64,000 nt of DNA, from positions 1,550,001-1,614,000 of the forward strand of contig NZ_CP039396.1 of NCBI RefSeq assembly GCF_004803915.1, read 5' to 3'. Below are positions 19,017 to 63,763 of the stretch, one piece after another. The position numbers and the translations under genes are program-made. The notes below the pieces were generated by a model that did no database searches, was not told the origin of the DNA, and was given only the letters and a program-made list of their open reading frames with translations. Positions within the stretch are counted from its first letter, which is position 1; every line of letters starts with the position of its first letter. The DNA comes from Duncaniella dubosii (lineage in GTDB: Bacteria > Bacteroidota > Bacteroidia > Bacteroidales > Muribaculaceae).

Positions 19017-19058
19017 GTCTTCTCGTCCTCGAAAGAAAAACATCATTAATAATGACAT

Positions 19059-19248
19059 TGGCAGGTCTTCGGACTTATTCCGGGCTTGTTTTTATTCAGA
19101 ATGCCTTCCCATTACCGTTATCCGGCCACAGTGGCATGGATCTGAGCCCTTTGTTAATTGGAAATTACCGCAGCGGGACTGTCCGGGATTCTCACCCGTG
19201 TTCCCTTTTAATCGGAATGATGCAGAATGTCGTGCATGTATCCGAACC
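19059..19248 (-). promoter_or_regulatory. Cobalamin riboswitch controlling btuBGFC
   Basis: On the minus strand the leader contains the elements of the AdoCbl aptamer in order: AGGGAACACGGGTGAGAATC, GGACAGTCCCGCTGCGGTAA, CATGCCACTGTGGCCGG, GGGAAGGCATTCTG, and the B12 box AGTCCGAAGACCTGCC at about 19062-19077. The aptamer ends about 43 nt before the btuB ATG, which suggests control of translation initiation or early termination. When B12 is bound, expression of the operon should fall. Confidence 0.95.
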
Positions 19249-19258
19249 AATGAGAGTG

Positions 19259-19288
19259 CAAAATTACACAAAAATTCAGAATCGCAAA
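19259..19288 (-). promoter_or_regulatory. Promoter of the riboswitch/btu operon
   Basis: TAATTTTG (exact TAnnTTTG) at 19259-19266 and TTTG at 19285-19288, 18 nt apart, on the minus strand directly upstream of the aptamer. Confidence 0.65.
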
Positions 19289-57257: not shown

Positions 57258-58403
57258 ATGGCAGACAAGAAGTATTCACCCGTAGTACAAGAACTCGCTG
57301 ACCTCATCAAAGAAAACAATTGGGAGGACAAATTCAATCAGGCTATCGCCAAAGTCGTGTCTTACAAGATTCCCGGATTGTCGGATATAGCCACGATAGA
57401 TGACTATCTTGCCTATCTTGAGGCTTATATGCACTGGGTTCCTGCTGAAAACAAAGAAGGTACACACGTCTATCAACACCTGTTCCGTTCCTTCTTCCTG
57501 TTGGATCAGGAACCTGTCAAGTCTCTGCAGACTCCATGTAAACCGGCAGACAGGCAGCCCGAACTTACTCCGCTTTCAAAATGGATGGTCGACTATTGCT
57601 ACGGAATCGGCAACTGGCTTGACAGTCCCGAATCGATTACCGACGACAGCGTGAAATCCTTCTATGACTGTGCGGTCTACAACATGGACGAGTATCTTGA
57701 GCCGCGAGGAGGCTGGAAGACATTCAACCAGATGTTTGCCCGTCACGTGAAACCCGGCTACCGTCCTATCGCTGCGATTGACGACGATAAGATTATCGTC
57801 CATCCGGCCGACGCTTGTTTCGGTGGCCAGTGGGAAATCCGTCCTGACACCCATGTACGTATCAAGGGTCTTGACTGGAGCATAGACGAGCTTCTTGAAG
57901 GTAGCCCCTATAAGGATAAATTCAAAGGCGGCATGTGGTGTCACTCGTTCCTTAGCTGGACCGACTATCATCGTCAGCATGCACCGCTTTCAGGCATTGT
58001 CCGTGAGGCACGTGTCATTCAGGGAGCATGCTATGTGGATCTCGTCGCTGTTCCTGACAAGGTAAATCCTGCCACCAATCAGGTTGAGGCATGGCGTGCG
58101 ACAGCTCCTGACCAGGCCGGTTATGAATTCATGCAGACCCGTGGTCTGATTGTCCTTGAGACGAAATACGGATATGTAGCCATTCTGCCTATTGCGATGC
58201 CTCAGGTTTCGTCGGTTGTCGTTACGGCTGAAGAAGGTGTCGCCCTTAAGAAAGGTGATGAGATATCCTACTTCCAGTTCGGCGGATCGGATATTGTCTA
58301 CCTCTTCTCTGCCAATATGAATGTTTCTATGTCTGCCCATAAGGGAACTCACTATAAAGTCGGCACAAAAATCGGAGAAGTCTATCCGGTGGTTGAACTC
58401 TGA
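57258..58403 (+). CDS. Phosphatidylserine decarboxylase-like pyruvoyl enzyme, probable amino acid decarboxylase
   Basis: 381 residues, longer than the phosphatidylserine decarboxylase (PSD) of membrane synthesis. Residues 1-120 are an N-terminal region of the PSDC type. The PSD core starts near 153 (WKTFNQMFARHVKPGYRPI). Asp185 (HPADACFGG) and His238/His241 (TDYHRQHAPLSG) match the PSD catalytic Asp and His. The cleavage motif FGGSDIV puts the pyruvoyl precursor serine at 344 (Gly343-Ser344), leaving a 38-residue alpha chain. No transmembrane anchor is seen. PSD-like tryptophan decarboxylase PsiD of fungi has a similar layout. The antiporter, MFS and porin genes downstream favour a small-molecule substrate. 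Lipid synthesis remains possible but less likely. Confidence 0.8.
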   Translation: MADKKYSPVVQELADLIKENNWEDKFNQAIAKVVSYKIPGLSDIATIDDYLAYLEAYMHWVPAENKEGTHVYQHLFRSFFLLDQEPVKSLQTPCKPADRQPELTPLSKWMVDYCYGIGNWLDSPESITDDSVKSFYDCAVYNMDEYLEPRGGWKTFNQMFARHVKPGYRPIAAIDDDKIIVHPADACFGGQWEIRPDTHVRIKGLDWSIDELLEGSPYKDKFKGGMWCHSFLSWTDYHRQHAPLSGIVREARVIQGACYVDLVAVPDKVNPATNQVEAWRATAPDQAGYEFMQTRGLIVLETKYGYVAILPIAMPQVSSVVVTAEEGVALKKGDEISYFQFGGSDIVYLFSANMNVSMSAHKGTHYKVGTKIGEVYPVVEL

Positions 58404-58487
58404 CCGTCGTAAGACACGATTTTCTCGAATTTCAACTATGAAGTGATTTTTTGAACGTTTTCATGACCGTCTGCCGGTCATGGCACA

Positions 58488-58523
58488 GCGGGGGTCGGCA
58501 TCACCGCCGACTCCCGCTTTTTT
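58488..58523 (+). terminator. Rho-independent terminator between decarboxylase and antiporter genes
   Basis: GCGGGGGTCGGC pairs with GCCGACTCCCGC (12 bp, one G-U), loop ATCACC region, followed by TTTTTTC. A smaller CATGACC/GGTCATG hairpin precedes it. Much of the decarboxylase transcript should stop here. Confidence 0.85.
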
Positions 58524-58585
58524 CAAACGCTCCGATTCATAGCTTCTCATCCTATCATTTAATAACGTATTTAATTAAGGCATAT

Positions 58586-60295
58586 ATGGCTACTTCAACT
58601 TCACCACGGTCATCCTCTGACAAACCTAAGGTGAATAAGCCATCGGCGGCTTTGATATCGACAGGAGCGATGACAGTAATGATCATCACGACTGTGGTCA
58701 GTCTCCGTGGACTTCCATCGCAGGCAGAGTTTGGCATTCAGTCAATTTTCTACTATCTGTTTGCCGCAATCGTTTTTCTGATTCCGTTTTCTCTTGTTTG
58801 TGCCGAGCTTGCTTCGACCTATACTCATTCCGGTGGCCTTTATCGTTGGGTTTCGGAAGCCTTTGGCCCTCGTTGGGGATGGACGGCAATGTATCTTGAA
58901 TGGCAGACTCTTGTAATATGGTTTCCTGCTGTCCTCATGTTTGCAGCCGTGTCGCTCGCCTATATATTCTGGCCGGAATCTTTTGACGCGAAGCTGTCGG
59001 CCAATAAGATTTACACACTGATTGTTGTGCTTGCGGTCTATTGGATAACTAACTTTATCGCTTTTAGGGGCATGAAGTCCTCGAAGATTCTGAGCACGCT
59101 CGGAGGTCTTTTCGGCACCATAGTGCCCGGTGCGATTCTGATTATTCTTGGTGTCGCATATCTGTGCATGGGCAAACCTATCATGCTGACCCATGAATCT
59201 TTCTTTCCTGATTTTACAAAAATCGGCACAATCGTACTCGCTGCATCGATTTTCCTGTTCTACGGTGGTATGGAGATGAATGCCGTCCATGTGCAGAACA
59301 TGAGTAATCCTGCCCGTCAGTTCCCGCGTGCGATTTTCCTTGCGGTCGCTGTCATCGTGCTCATATTTGTCTTCGCTACTCTTGCAATCGGTTTTGTCGT
59401 TCCTGCGAAGGATATAAATCTTCTCGCCTCGCTGCTGGTTGCCTACAATGACCTCTGGGCATCCATCGGAGTGCCTTGGCTTGGAAATGTGATGGCATTG
59501 CTGATCACTTTCGGTGTGATAGGTCAGGTGAGTGTCATCATTGCAGGCCCGTCGACAGGTCTTGTAGCGGTCGGTGAGAGCGGTTATCTTCCGCGTGGTC
59601 TCCAGAAGACCAATTCGCGAGGTGTCAATAAACCGATTCTTTACGTTCAGGCCATTTTTGTGAGCCTGCTTTCGCTGGTGCTCGTCGTGCTTCCATCGGT
59701 TGAATCAGCCTATCAGGTTATGTCGCAGATGGCTACTGTCATCTATCTGATACTTGTATTGATGATTTATTTTGCATTTATCAGATTGCGTCACACTCAG
59801 CCGCAGAAACATCGCGGTTTCCGTATTCCGGGTGGTAAATTCGGAGAAGTCGTAGTCGGTGGTATTGGAATTCTTGGTGCGATTGTTGCCATGATTCTTA
59901 GCTTTTTCCCGCCTTCGCAGATTAACACCGGCAGTCCGGTAGTTTATGTGCTCATAATTCTCTGTGGAGCTGTCCTGTTTTTCTGTGTTCCTCTGATTGT
60001 ATTTGCCAAACGTAAGCCGTCATGGCGTAATCCGCAGGCTGATTTCTATCCTTTCGACTGGCAGATTGAGAACCGTGAGCCTTCACAGCCGTCAAAATGG
60101 AGTGCCGATTATCAGCCGACACCGGCCGACATTGCTGCTACGGATGCGAGAATTCTTGCCGAGGAAAACGGAGCGAGCCGGTCGGAGGCAGAGGCTCTTG
60201 CCGCAGAGGCAGCCAAAGCTTACAATGATTCAGCCAATCCACAGGCGGTAGCTTATGAGATTTTCAATAAAAACAAAGGCGGCACAGCGAAGTGA
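58586..60295 (+). CDS. APC-family amino acid/amine antiporter (GadC-like)
   Basis: 569 residues from ATG 58586; upstream in-frame residues are not membrane-like. Twelve helices with the APC start SAALISTGAMTVMIITTVVS, then QSIFYYLFAAIVFLIPFSLV, GGLYRWVSEAFGPRWGWTAM and FYGGMEMNAVHVQNMSNPAR (typical of GadC-like transporters). After the last helix comes a 70-90 residue polar tail rich in Ala/Glu. GadC's C-terminal plug closes the channel at neutral pH. The tail here may act alike (inference). It probably exchanges an amino acid for its amine or another product. Confidence 0.85.
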   Translation: MATSTSPRSSSDKPKVNKPSAALISTGAMTVMIITTVVSLRGLPSQAEFGIQSIFYYLFAAIVFLIPFSLVCAELASTYTHSGGLYRWVSEAFGPRWGWTAMYLEWQTLVIWFPAVLMFAAVSLAYIFWPESFDAKLSANKIYTLIVVLAVYWITNFIAFRGMKSSKILSTLGGLFGTIVPGAILIILGVAYLCMGKPIMLTHESFFPDFTKIGTIVLAASIFLFYGGMEMNAVHVQNMSNPARQFPRAIFLAVAVIVLIFVFATLAIGFVVPAKDINLLASLLVAYNDLWASIGVPWLGNVMALLITFGVIGQVSVIIAGPSTGLVAVGESGYLPRGLQKTNSRGVNKPILYVQAIFVSLLSLVLVVLPSVESAYQVMSQMATVIYLILVLMIYFAFIRLRHTQPQKHRGFRIPGGKFGEVVVGGIGILGAIVAMILSFFPPSQINTGSPVVYVLIILCGAVLFFCVPLIVFAKRKPSWRNPQADFYPFDWQIENREPSQPSKWSADYQPTPADIAATDARILAEENGASRSEAEALAAEAAKAYNDSANPQAVAYEIFNKNKGGTAK

Positions 60296-60341
60296 TGTCT
60301 GACCTTCGGACCACGTCATTTCCCCTCAAACAGTCGACGTT

Positions 60342-61673
60342 ATGAAAGTAAACACCGGAAAGGGCTCTATCTCCCTTATGACCCTGATTGCCATATGGTC
60401 AATCTCTCTGACTGTCAATCTGCCCGGGCTTGCCATCACACCTATGTTAGGCAATCTGGACAAGATATTCCCTCACACGTCTGAACTGGAGATTCAGCTC
60501 CTGACCGTGTTGCCTAACCTTTTCATAATCCCGTTTGTATTGCTTTCGGGGAAGCTGTCGCTGTCGAAAAGCAAAATTAAAATAGTAGTGGTGGCACTCG
60601 CCATCTATCTGGCGAGTGGCATCCTCTATTTCTTTGCCAAAAGCATGGTCGACCTGATTGTCATAAGCTGTCTGCTTGGCATCGGGTGCGGTTTGCTGAT
60701 ACCGCTTGCCGCAGGTCTTCTGGCTGATACATTTGTCGGGAAGTACCGTATGAGGCAGCTTGGAATCAAGTCCGGTCTCTCGAATATCGCTCTTGTTATT
60801 GCCACCTATATCGTCGGTTGGCTTAATCATGGCAACTGGCGGTTGCCGTTTCTCGTTTATCTGATTCCGGCGATACCTCTCGTATTGTCTGTGTTCCTGC
60901 GAGGCATTCCGAAAGCAGATCTCTATCCGGCTTCTGTAACACCGTCGCCCGACGTGAAAGCCACAGCCAAGGTCGCATCGAAGGCTTCTGTTGCCGGAGT
61001 TCCGGCAAAGGCCATACATGCCAAAGTCCCGGCCTACGTTAATGACGAAGAGAATGGAAAGCCGTGTCTTGTGAAGGATGGATTCATAATCTCACGTGTG
61101 TGGTCGCTCATTACCGTCTATTTCTTTGTCTGCTACGCGACTGTGATAGTCAGCTATTACACCCCGTTTCTCATGCAGTCCGATGGAATGAGTGACTCAG
61201 ATGTCGGATCTGTAACCGCGATTTTCTTTCTTGCCGTCTTTCTCCCGGGCTTTATTCTGCCTTATGTCGTGAAGATGTTGAGACAGACCACACTGATTGC
61301 CTGCTCTATTGTCATGGCCGGCGGTATAATCCTCATGGTTGCAGGGCATAATTTCGGTGTGATGTGTGTGGCAGCTGTGCTTGTCGGATTCGGCTATGGA
61401 GTTTTCCAGCCTTTGATTTATGACAAGGCTACCCAGATAGTAACCGATCCGGCAAAATCGACTCTCGCATTGGCAATAGTGCTTGCAGCCAATTATGTCT
61501 CTGTAAGCGTCACGCCTTTCATTGTCGATGGCTTAAGGGATATTTTCGATCCTCACCATCTCAACAATGCTTTCCCGTTTATTCTGAATTCAGTCCTTCT
61601 CGGCATATTTACATTTATTGTAATCATATTTCGCAAGTCGTTCGTGTTCCGTATCGATCGTTCCTACTATTAA
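60342..61673 (+). CDS. MFS transporter
   Basis: 443 residues, twelve helices in two halves. Typical: AITPMLGNLDKIFP early, LSGKLSLSKSKIKIVVVALA in loop 2-3, GCGLLIPLAAGLLADTFVGK, and LVGFGYGVFQPLIYDKATQI in the second half. The middle loop (about residues 195-245) is long and has Ala/Lys/Val-rich repeats. No antibiotic-specific signature is seen. It starts 46 nt after the antiporter, so it is in the same transcript and may import or export the same compounds. Confidence 0.86.
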   Translation: MKVNTGKGSISLMTLIAIWSISLTVNLPGLAITPMLGNLDKIFPHTSELEIQLLTVLPNLFIIPFVLLSGKLSLSKSKIKIVVVALAIYLASGILYFFAKSMVDLIVISCLLGIGCGLLIPLAAGLLADTFVGKYRMRQLGIKSGLSNIALVIATYIVGWLNHGNWRLPFLVYLIPAIPLVLSVFLRGIPKADLYPASVTPSPDVKATAKVASKASVAGVPAKAIHAKVPAYVNDEENGKPCLVKDGFIISRVWSLITVYFFVCYATVIVSYYTPFLMQSDGMSDSDVGSVTAIFFLAVFLPGFILPYVVKMLRQTTLIACSIVMAGGIILMVAGHNFGVMCVAAVLVGFGYGVFQPLIYDKATQIVTDPAKSTLALAIVLAANYVSVSVTPFIVDGLRDIFDPHHLNNAFPFILNSVLLGIFTFIVIIFRKSFVFRIDRSYY

Positions 61674-61737
61674 TTTATGGAACATACATTGCGGAAACAA
61701 GGCTAAATATTAAAAGCTTCTTTACACTTAACTGATA

Positions 61738-63045
61738 ATGAATACTTTTACACGTTTCATCGTTTTTTGTCCGGCCTTGGCTATCGTGCCTTCTGTATTC
61801 GGACAGACACATTCCCTCACTCCTGAGTATCAGGAAGTGACTATAGTTAACCCGCAGTCAGGAGTATCATCAGATACCACTGTCATCAATGTCTATAACA
61901 TATTCCTTGAGAATGCGCCTAAATCATTTAAAGTTCCGGGTGCGCCTCGGTTTGCAATCGAGGGTAAGGACAGGAAGTTTTATCTTGGCATCGGTGGAAC
62001 AGCCAAAGCCACTCTTTCGTATGATTGGGGTAATCCGATTGACAACGCCTACGATTTCACGACATCAGCCATACCTATGACACAACGTCCCGGAGACGGT
62101 GGTCTTGTGCAGGCAACGGCTGCGACGAGCGGTCTGTTTGTCAACTTCGTCGCAATGCCCGGTGATAAAAATCAGCTTGGAGTATATTTTAATTTCAATC
62201 TGACGGGTAATGGAAATGACTATGGCTTCAATCTCTGCTATGCCTATATAAAATATCGTGGCTTCACTGTCGGTTATGACTATAGCCTGTTCTCGGATAT
62301 GGCGGCCGCTCCACCGAGCATAGATAATGAAGGCCCTTGTGGATTCACGGCCATACCTAACGGAGTCATAGACTATCGCTATAATATCAATTCAAAATGG
62401 AGTGTGGCTATAGGCGCTGAGATGCCTATGGTCTCGGCCACAACCGGCGAGAATACTTATGTAGTGAATCAGCGTGTCCCTGACATACCCGCTTATGTGC
62501 AGTATTCGTGGGGTGGTGGCGAGAGCTGGCTTCGTTTCTCAGGTATAATGCGCAATATGCTTTATCGTGATGAGCTTTCCGGCAAAAACAGGGATCAGCT
62601 TGGCTGGGGAGTGAAAATGAGCGGAAGCGCTTCAGTCTCTCCATTTATAACGGCATATTATCAGGCTGCCTATGGAAAGGGTATTACAAGTTATTTTCAA
62701 GATTTGTATGAAGGAGGACTTGACATGGTTCCCTCAGGAGACGGCTCTCTGAAAGCTGTCAAGGCTTGGGGCGGTTATCTCGGTCTTCAGTACAACATAT
62801 CGCCAAAAGTATATGCGACAACTACCTACAGTCATGTGCGCAACTATGCCCGGGATTATTCCGGCGGTTCTACAGCGTGGAGCGGACAGTACAAGTATGC
62901 GCAATATGCGTTGGCAAATATAATGTGGAACATTACGCCACAGATTTCGACCGGTCTCGAATATATCTATGGCCGTCGTGTGGATATGGATGGCATGTCG
63001 CGTCACGACAACCGCATACAGACCATGCTTCAGGTTACATTCTGA
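61738..63045 (+). CDS. Outer-membrane porin (DcaP/OprO-like barrel)
   Basis: 435 residues. A Sec signal (MNTFTRFIVFCPALAIVPSVFG) is followed by an N-terminal segment and then a beta-barrel: FYLGIGGTAKATLSYDWGNP, FVNFVAMPGDKNQLGVYFN, GFTVGYDYSLFSDMAAAPPS, YRYNINSKWSVAIGAEMP, and a final strand QTMLQVTF ending in Phe, the usual barrel signal. This is a DcaP-like porin fold for small anions or organic acids. It is 64 nt after the MFS gene. Its place suggests a role in uptake or release of the substrate of the decarboxylase/antiporter system. The solute is unknown. Confidence 0.82.
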   Translation: MNTFTRFIVFCPALAIVPSVFGQTHSLTPEYQEVTIVNPQSGVSSDTTVINVYNIFLENAPKSFKVPGAPRFAIEGKDRKFYLGIGGTAKATLSYDWGNPIDNAYDFTTSAIPMTQRPGDGGLVQATAATSGLFVNFVAMPGDKNQLGVYFNFNLTGNGNDYGFNLCYAYIKYRGFTVGYDYSLFSDMAAAPPSIDNEGPCGFTAIPNGVIDYRYNINSKWSVAIGAEMPMVSATTGENTYVVNQRVPDIPAYVQYSWGGGESWLRFSGIMRNMLYRDELSGKNRDQLGWGVKMSGSASVSPFITAYYQAAYGKGITSYFQDLYEGGLDMVPSGDGSLKAVKAWGGYLGLQYNISPKVYATTTYSHVRNYARDYSGGSTAWSGQYKYAQYALANIMWNITPQISTGLEYIYGRRVDMDGMSRHDNRIQTMLQVTF

Positions 63046-63137: not shown

Positions 63138-63763
63138 TTATTTTTTTGCCTTGAATGCTTTCCCTGTCCATTCATATGTCAGTGACGGCATGAGGTCGGA
63201 CGAAATGTCGTCATAGAGAGCCTTGTCAAGAAGCTTGTCAAGATTATTTGTAAGGGTCAGAGTCGAGGTCGACGGGTCGATGCGGTAGGAGGCGAGCATG
63301 AAAGGCACCTGCATGGTCACGTCAGCCTCGTTCTTGCTTCCGCTTTCGGTCAGCCACTCTTTCCAGCCGGGTTTGGTAAAGTAGTTTTCAGTCGGCAGCG
63401 GATTCCAGTCAGTATCGTAGAATCTGATATCGGAATCCAGCCCGGGGTGGCGACAGTGCTGATCAAGGCGATAATGCGGCCCTTTGTCCCTTTCAGCTCC
63501 ACCAGTTGTATGGCTGATGAATCAGTCATTTTTACAGTGATTGATTCAGGGGTCATTTCAGTGATTGCCGAGCGTCCGTCAAGCTGGTTTTGAGAGGGAG
63601 TGGCCATACCGTTTTTGAAATAGTCGACCATGTCAAGACGGGTATTCCTGTCAAGCAATGGAAATATTTTCTGCGGTGCTGAGGTAAACAGGTCGGCTGC
63701 CGACTGTGCGCTCATTGTCAGCGATGCAGCCCCGATGGCGATGGCAAGGAGATATTTTTTCAT
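63138..63763 (-). pseudogene. DUF3256 family gene, broken by a one-base frameshift
   Basis: Two adjacent frames together make one DUF3256 protein of about 208 residues. The N-terminal part (signal MKKYLLAIAIGAASLTMSAQ, then FPLLDRNTRLDMVDYFKNG and LVELKGTKGRIIALISTVAT) runs from 63763. After TVATPG the sequence goes out of frame. The other frame resumes with LDSDIRFYDTDWNPLPTENY and continues to SLTYEWTGKAFKAKK with stop at 63138. The lost base lies in the CCCCGGG run near 63441-63447. DUF3256 proteins are small exported Bacteroidetes proteins of unknown function. It may be a real mutation or an assembly error. It lies 21 nt after the helicase gene. Confidence 0.82.

Follow-up and report, generated by a model that had tools for sequence, protein, structure and literature searches.

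Pyruvoyl decarboxylases that adjoin an amino acid antiporter have been described for histidine (HdcA/HdcP) and arginine (AaxB/AaxC), and systems in which two decarboxylases share one antiporter are also known (available excerpt of PMC8465708). The glutamate system, GAD-GlsA-GadC, places a pyridoxal phosphate (PLP)-dependent glutamate decarboxylase (GAD) and a glutaminase (GlsA) upstream of a GadC-like antiporter. PsiD, a fungal L-tryptophan decarboxylase (substrate according to the names of its deposited chains), has the phosphatidylserine decarboxylase (PSD) fold and acts on a free amino acid; we know of no antiporter partner for PsiD. Here we analyze a locus of Duncaniella dubosii, contained in a 64,000-nucleotide stretch (contig NZ_CP039396.1, positions 1,550,001 to 1,614,000; hereafter, the window), in which a gene for a PSD-like protein (PSDL) stands upstream of a gene for a GadC-like antiporter. 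We conclude that PSDL is probably a soluble, self-cleaving, PSD-fold pyruvoyl decarboxylase whose substrate is a free amino acid, not phosphatidylserine (PS), and that is coupled to antiport. The fold of AaxB differs from that of PSDL. HdcA belongs to family PF02329 (available excerpt of PMC8465708), whereas PSDL matches PF02666 alone among Pfam families. A first-pass annotation of the window, which had presented known systems as using PLP decarboxylases, overlooked the HdcA/HdcP and AaxB/AaxC pairs, which are pyruvoyl systems (same excerpt), though of other folds. What would be new is the presence of a PSD-fold enzyme within an antiport module, pairs of a pyruvoyl decarboxylase and an antiporter being known as a kind; in openly licensed PubMed Central papers we found nothing in print on a combination of a PSD-like enzyme and an antiporter.

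The module comprises four open reading frames (ORFs), all on the + strand, at window positions 57258-63045: PSDL, a predicted pyruvoyl decarboxylase (57258..58403; 381 aa; PF02666, 2.9e-44); a GadC-like amino acid-polyamine-organocation (APC) antiporter (58586..60295; 569 aa from ATG; PF13520, 4.5e-53); a major facilitator superfamily (MFS) carrier (60342..61673; 443 aa; PF07690, 1e-37); and an outer-membrane porin of the Porin_2 family (61738..63045; 435 aa; PF02530, 4.5e-12, with DcaP below its cut-off). The same-direction series of PSD-like enzyme, antiporter, MFS carrier and porin noted in the first-pass annotation is thus present, at these coordinates and with Pfam support. The antiporter and MFS genes are separated by 46 bases, and the MFS and porin genes by 64 bases. 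For the antiporter, the ATG at 58586 is the most likely start; the mechanically assigned TTG start at 58451 is unlikely because it lies upstream of a terminator-like hairpin (58487..58518). The module is also present in Duncaniella muris DSM 103720 (locus L006), and no known RNA element was found at the module at the Rfam gathering threshold. According to the mechanism that we propose, PSDL would self-cleave at Gly343/Ser344 and form a pyruvoyl group, and the cell would probably swap the amine made from the free amino acid for more amino acid, with the APC antiporter carrying amino acid in and amine out. The porin and the MFS carrier would probably aid passage across the outer and inner membranes, and each decarboxylation would consume a cytosolic proton, providing acid resistance or energy.

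Linkage between PSDL and the antiporter is conserved, and many gut bacteria of the Muribaculaceae, a mouse-associated family, have the two side by side. Among 79 genome-contig loci, taken from the best 80 of 156 PSDL relatives, an APC gene is present in 59, and in 56 it immediately follows PSDL on the same strand; in L053 and L077 it is beside PSDL and divergent, and in L079 it lies beyond a PLP decarboxylase. Split by habitat (our own division, made from record titles; labels of metagenome-assembled genomes that are not credible, such as Staphylococcus for L008, were left unused), an APC gene is present at 59/63 gut-type loci and 0/16 environmental loci. In 297 genomes of the same family, PSDL is present in 52 and a close PSDL in 50, and an APC gene lies within 5 kb of PSDL in 47/52, corresponding to 47/50 of those with a close PSDL. 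The APC gene is downstream on the same strand in 46 of these 47 genomes and divergent in 1, and in family genomes APC directly follows 47 PSDL copies, at distances of 44-310 bp (median 150). The pairing used the best 70 APC matches, the remainder being 40-49% identical and of GAD type where opened; unpaired APC matches in PSDL genomes G167 and G194 are on other contigs, and two family genomes with a distant homologue (G041, G140) have no linked APC. A draw of 393 genomes across the order yielded 20 with a match at 1e-20, five of them close (G000, which is the window's genome, G007, G307, G476 and G631). Clustering of ORFs from 81 loci (including L001 and L002) and the window, with some genes masked by opposite-strand ORFs, identified APC (59 stretches), MFS (31) and porin (25) as the sole frequent companions of PSDL, each other cluster occurring in at most five stretches. 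PSDL and APC distances are correlated (Mantel r 0.74, 57 pairs), also outside the window's clade (r 0.66, 41 pairs), and in each case 0/2000 permutations gave a value as high. The linkage counts, ORF clustering and co-divergence rule out chance linkage, and the comparison of gene neighbourhoods across Bacteroidales that had been suggested in the first-pass annotation bears out its pairing of enzyme and antiporter. Within genera the presence of PSDL is patchy, as for a mobile cassette.

PSDL occupies a slot that is held in other loci by an unrelated PLP decarboxylase beside the same antiporter clade. We opened 28 extra stretches with antiporters without PSDL or with PSDLs without antiporter. 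Each of the 11 antiporters of 40-48% identity that we opened is immediately preceded by GAD or GlsA (both in nine, GlsA only in L158, GAD only in L171). Relatives of the window MFS carrier lie downstream of antiporters in PSDL modules and in some GAD-GlsA-GadC sets: in L160, GAD-GlsA-GadC is followed by relatives of both the window MFS carrier and the window porin, and in L159, L161 and L170 an MFS relative follows the GAD-type set. These sets (e.g. L154, L160) thus resemble the window module in having a decarboxylase upstream of a GadC-like antiporter, and differ in having a PLP decarboxylase (TIGR01788 in L154) and a glutaminase and no PSDL. In three genomes without PSDL (L144-L146), antiporters of 63-64% identity directly follow a non-GAD decarboxylase of family PF00282, about 583 aa long. 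Outside Bacteroidota, four of 92 antiporter records on plasmids were opened (the best of each distinct kind), and 4/4 have a PF00282 decarboxylase upstream that is 53-61% identical to the Bacteroidales 583-aa enzyme. The pairs of the 583-aa type, in L144-L146 and on plasmids of Plesiomonas, Escherichia albertii and Sphingomonadales, share the slot and an antiporter with Gln304 and without Trp308 (GadC numbering), and differ in that the decarboxylase is a PLP enzyme of another fold. In an antiporter tree, the 11 GAD-linked rows of this family group in a single clade (99), separate from the remaining 75 (support 83, not starred), among which PSDL-linked, PLP-linked and lone antiporters are intermixed; this tree and that of PSDL are quick ones with several long branches. 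Antiporters stand alone in L147-L152, L167 and L168, and with MFS and porin only in L153.

NCBIfam cut-offs do not bear out automatic names for the 583-aa enzyme such as L-2,4-diaminobutyrate decarboxylase, and the enzyme passes no NCBIfam equivalog. The plasmid pairs (L222, L223, L224 and L221) comprise a PF00282 protein of 570-591 aa (a shorter annotated piece in L221) and a GadC-like antiporter, and occur on Plesiomonas, Polymorphobacter, Escherichia albertii and Sphingomonas plasmids; E. coli genomes contain no close DNA match to the E. albertii pair. A fifth plasmid record, from Enterococcus, was examined because it carries a tyrosine decarboxylase and TyrP. The D. dubosii genome contains a second antiporter of the window's clade, 62% identical and standing alone (L167:4968-6581; G000 C1).

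The PLP enzyme and PSDL also occur together. Of the family genomes, 64 have a PF00282 match and eight have the 583-aa enzyme (G010, G076, G078, G094, G096, G106, G132 and G163), in all eight beside APC; in five (G010, G078, G094, G132 and G163), PSDL lies between the PLP enzyme and APC, the PLP gene of G078 being in two pieces. Ten low-scoring PF00282 matches that were opened include two GAD-like fragments (G007, G035), and 0/8 of the others match the 583-aa enzyme. Two decarboxylases acting on different amino acids could share one antiporter, as in the three-component systems described for histidine/arginine (available excerpt of PMC8465708). The order PLP decarboxylase-PSDL-APC in L018, L019, L024, L031, L198 and L230 fits such an arrangement, as do, by coordinates, the five family genomes. 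Such a system cannot be the general rule, because most PSDL loci, that of the window included, lack such a PLP enzyme and the D. dubosii genome has no PF00282 match; we consider this reading unlikely, if a serious contender.

The sequence of PSDL combines intact catalytic residues with loss of the lipid-phosphate ligands. Alignment with E. coli Psd equates Asp90, His144 and His147 with PSDL Asp185 (codon at 57810..57812; maturation triad), His238 (57969..57971) and His241, and the cleavage pair Gly253/Ser254 with PSDL Gly343/Ser344 (58284..58289), the predicted site of self-cleavage and pyruvoyl formation. This pair was assigned from the motif itself, FQFGGSD in PSDL versus LGST in canonical Psd, the MAFFT alignment being off by one there. 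These assignments agree in full with the residues named in the first-pass annotation. By contrast, the PSDC-type N-terminus that it had proposed is not upheld: PF12588 (PSDC) is not reported for the window PSDL at E <= 10, and among 19 aligned proteins it has one match (E = 0.027), in a search in which HMMER filters discard most matches above about E 0.1. His144 of E. coli Psd is essential for decarboxylation, and Tyr137 and Ser166 are its ligands for the lipid phosphate, with 85% Tyr and 15% Arg at position 137 across the family (available excerpt of PMC7952604). PSDL has Phe231 (57948..57950) in place of Tyr137 and Val260 (58035..58037) in place of Ser166. Across 78 antiporter-linked copies, counted without L164-L166, L174 and L191, which are copies of loci already counted, position 231 is Phe in 78, position 260 is Val (26) or Leu (52), His238 is kept in 78, and position 185 is Asp in 70 and Glu in 8. 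The combination of Phe231 and Val/Leu260 also occurs in 5/6 unlinked gut copies, 8/16 environmental copies and 11/21 distant homologues. The PsiD chains (8zia, 8x4q; PsiD-like 9jer) have Phe and Ala at the Tyr137 and Ser166 sites and a GG chain end; PsiD resembles PSDL in its PF02666-like core, GG end and Phe, and differs in its PSDC domain (PF12588). A profile search with PSDL ranks PsiD (74 bits) above E. coli Psd (69.5). PSDL would be soluble: it has no strongly hydrophobic stretch, and its best 19-residue mean hydrophobicity is 1.62, compared with 1.55 for E. coli Psd and 2.72 for the short psd of the same genome.

At eight loci (L023, L028, L039, L049, L051, L054, L055 and L063), PSDL occurs in tandem copies, of which one per locus has Glu185, and these Glu185 copies, that of L049 excepted, group together in the PSDL tree (which omits L162, L163, L164-L166, L174, L191 and loci from L184 on). 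Two PSDL proteins (P0016, P0017) resemble chimeras of two subfamilies and are perhaps assembly artefacts.

The antiporter provides clues to the substrate. At the positions of GadC Trp308 (the gate), Glu304 and Tyr382, the window antiporter has Ile318, Gln314 and Val391. GadC requires Trp308, which corresponds to AdiC Trp293, to transport glutamate, and this transport is abolished when the residue is changed to Ala (available excerpt of PMC4970712). The position is Trp in 11/11 GAD-linked antiporters and Ile, Leu, Val or Asn in 75/75 of the other clade, 62 of which are PSDL-linked; Glu218 and Tyr378 of GadC are kept in all antiporters of both clades. Glutamate is therefore an unlikely substrate of the PSDL module, as judged from sequence. 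Loss of Trp308 argues against glutamate only, and not for an aromatic substrate, because Enterococcus TyrP keeps Trp308; we accordingly dropped the loss as proof of an aromatic substrate, proteobacterial antiporters moreover keeping Tyr382. Our guess is that the substrate may be a neutral or hydrophobic amino acid, which would suit the hydrophobic residues at PSDL 231 and 260 and the smaller side chains at antiporter positions 318 and 391; proteobacterial members have Tyr at the equivalent of position 391.

The nearest model to the window antiporter, the Gln/GABA antiporter TIGR03813, raises the alternative that PSDL is a pyruvoyl stand-in for GadB, converting glutamate to gamma-aminobutyrate (GABA) beside a true Glu/GABA antiporter. 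The window antiporter, however, scores 622 bits against a cut-off of 650, which the two GAD-linked antiporters scored pass (788 and 772); the GAD-linked clade retains Trp308, and the residues at PSDL 231 and 260 are hydrophobic. Distribution points the other way: GAD (PF00282 matches above 160 bits; 46 genomes) and close PSDL (50 genomes) co-occur in 2/297 family genomes, with 7.7 expected (Fisher p = 0.010), or, with the GAD-like fragments of G007 and G035, in 3, with 8.1 expected (p = 0.034), both values being uncorrected for ancestry. This rarity could reflect redundancy and could thereby count against a neutral or hydrophobic substrate. In L041, moreover, a glutaminase gene (L041:14272-15201) follows PSDL-APC-MFS directly; no other PSDL locus contains a glutaminase. 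We set glutamate/GABA aside as leading substrate on the TIGR03813 scores and the loss of Trp308, and regard a GABA-producing PSDL as improbable.

The lipid enzyme of D. dubosii is probably another protein. The genome has one further PF02666 match, a 226-aa psd that adjoins a pssA-like gene (C1:1061985-1062491; named by eye from sequence), so that PSDL is probably not the genome's lipid psd, and the possibility that it is the only psd is ruled out; the separate short psd for which the first-pass annotation had advised a check is thus there. PSDL scores below the cut-off of all six NCBIfam psd models that it matches (nearest, TIGR00163, 82.9 versus 111.75), and lacks the canonical LGST motif along with the Tyr137/Ser166 ligands; it does have the PF02666 domain and the Asp/His/Ser maturation residues that mark a canonical Psd.

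Several observations weigh against an antiport-linked amino acid decarboxylase. First, 20 loci lack APC: four gut loci (L021, L025, L057 and L067) and the 16 environmental loci, of which L064 has just 218 bp available downstream of PSDL. All 16 environmental PSDLs have intact catalytic residues and no APC, so that the ancestral role of PSDL may have been a different one, and seven of the 16 have Tyr at position 231. Second, APC is missing within 5 kb of a close PSDL in three family genomes (G115, G215, G264), and in the order-wide draw G307 and G476 have no APC near the close PSDL in the 9 and 12 kb inspected. Third, a single-sequence search with PSDL, opposite in order to the profile search, scores E. 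coli Psd (56.4 bits) above PsiD (42.4). Fourth, in the five family genomes where the PLP decarboxylase co-occurs, the task of PSDL may be a different one. Fifth, E. coli Psd retains about 50% of its activity on PS with Y137F, shows no significant change with S166A, and has substantially lower activity with Y137F/S166A (available excerpt of PMC7952604); PSDL may have lipid activity, because Y137F alone keeps about half. Sixth, the hairpin between PSDL and the antiporter (+ strand; 13 pairs, 10 of them G-C, followed by TTTTT) suggests that the two are not simply co-expressed. Hairpins with T-runs are present in 34/60 stretches 3' of PSDL (<=180 bases each; the duplicate locus L191 still included), compared with a mean of 1.2 and a maximum of 2 in 20 rounds of dinucleotide shuffling. 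Because the hairpin lies between the genes, PSDL output may exceed antiporter output, or the two may be transcribed separately. Of the module as first proposed, therefore, the PSD-fold enzyme in the decarboxylase slot beside an antiporter stands, and the single simple four-gene operon is not supported.

Some of these observations would suit a different role, in which PSDL, as a second phosphatidylserine decarboxylase, tunes the lipids of the membrane in response to acid stress, and the antiporter beside it serves a separate function. Membership in PF02666 with intact D/H/S residues, the residual activity of Y137F, the APC-less environmental PSDLs and the intervening hairpin are all consistent with such a lipid enzyme. 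The psd beside the pssA-like gene, the scores below the NCBIfam psd cut-offs, the loss of both phosphate ligands in 78/78 linked copies and the sharing of a slot with a PLP decarboxylase argue against it, and we judge it very improbable. Our preferred reading remains that PSDL is a PSD-fold enzyme that decarboxylates a free amino acid and is coupled to antiport. In a broader and distinctly tentative form, gut Bacteroidales may have recruited the PSD fold as a decarboxylase of free amino acids that takes the place of a PLP enzyme in an antiport module, which would consume protons and release a neutral, perhaps aromatic, amine into the gut; the PSDL enzymes would then be one branch within a larger group of bacterial amino acid decarboxylases with the PSD fold. 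If so, genes of mouse-gut bacteria that databases label phosphatidylserine decarboxylase, as they do PSDL genes, would be amine makers, surveys aimed at PLP enzymes or HdcA would overlook them, and the fold of a lipid enzyme would serve in bacteria as an energy or acid-resistance decarboxylase.

Other PSD-like proteins have other neighbours. Seven environmental PSDLs whose loci lack an antiporter (L045, L062, L065, L068, L069, L074 and L081) have as neighbours catalase, a small membrane protein, peptidase S51 (cyanophycinase-like by eye) or an aminotransferase. Distant PSD-like proteins in L210, L212 and L214 directly adjoin a PAD_porph gene (a similar-looking gene in L214), and that of L212 has both PSDC and PSD domains; the arrangement hints at a putative arginine decarboxylase of PSD fold. 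In L211 (L211:5941-8064), a Condensation domain is fused to a PSD domain, and inspection by eye suggests that the neighbouring genes encode an AMP-ligase and a carrier protein. Elsewhere in the window, a DUF3256 ORF of 137 aa downstream of the module (63350-63763, - strand) matches family positions 2-96 of 195 and then departs, and is perhaps truncated, and a Cobalamin riboswitch (19043-19266, - strand; 92 bits, gathering threshold 31.5) is the window's only Rfam match at the gathering threshold.

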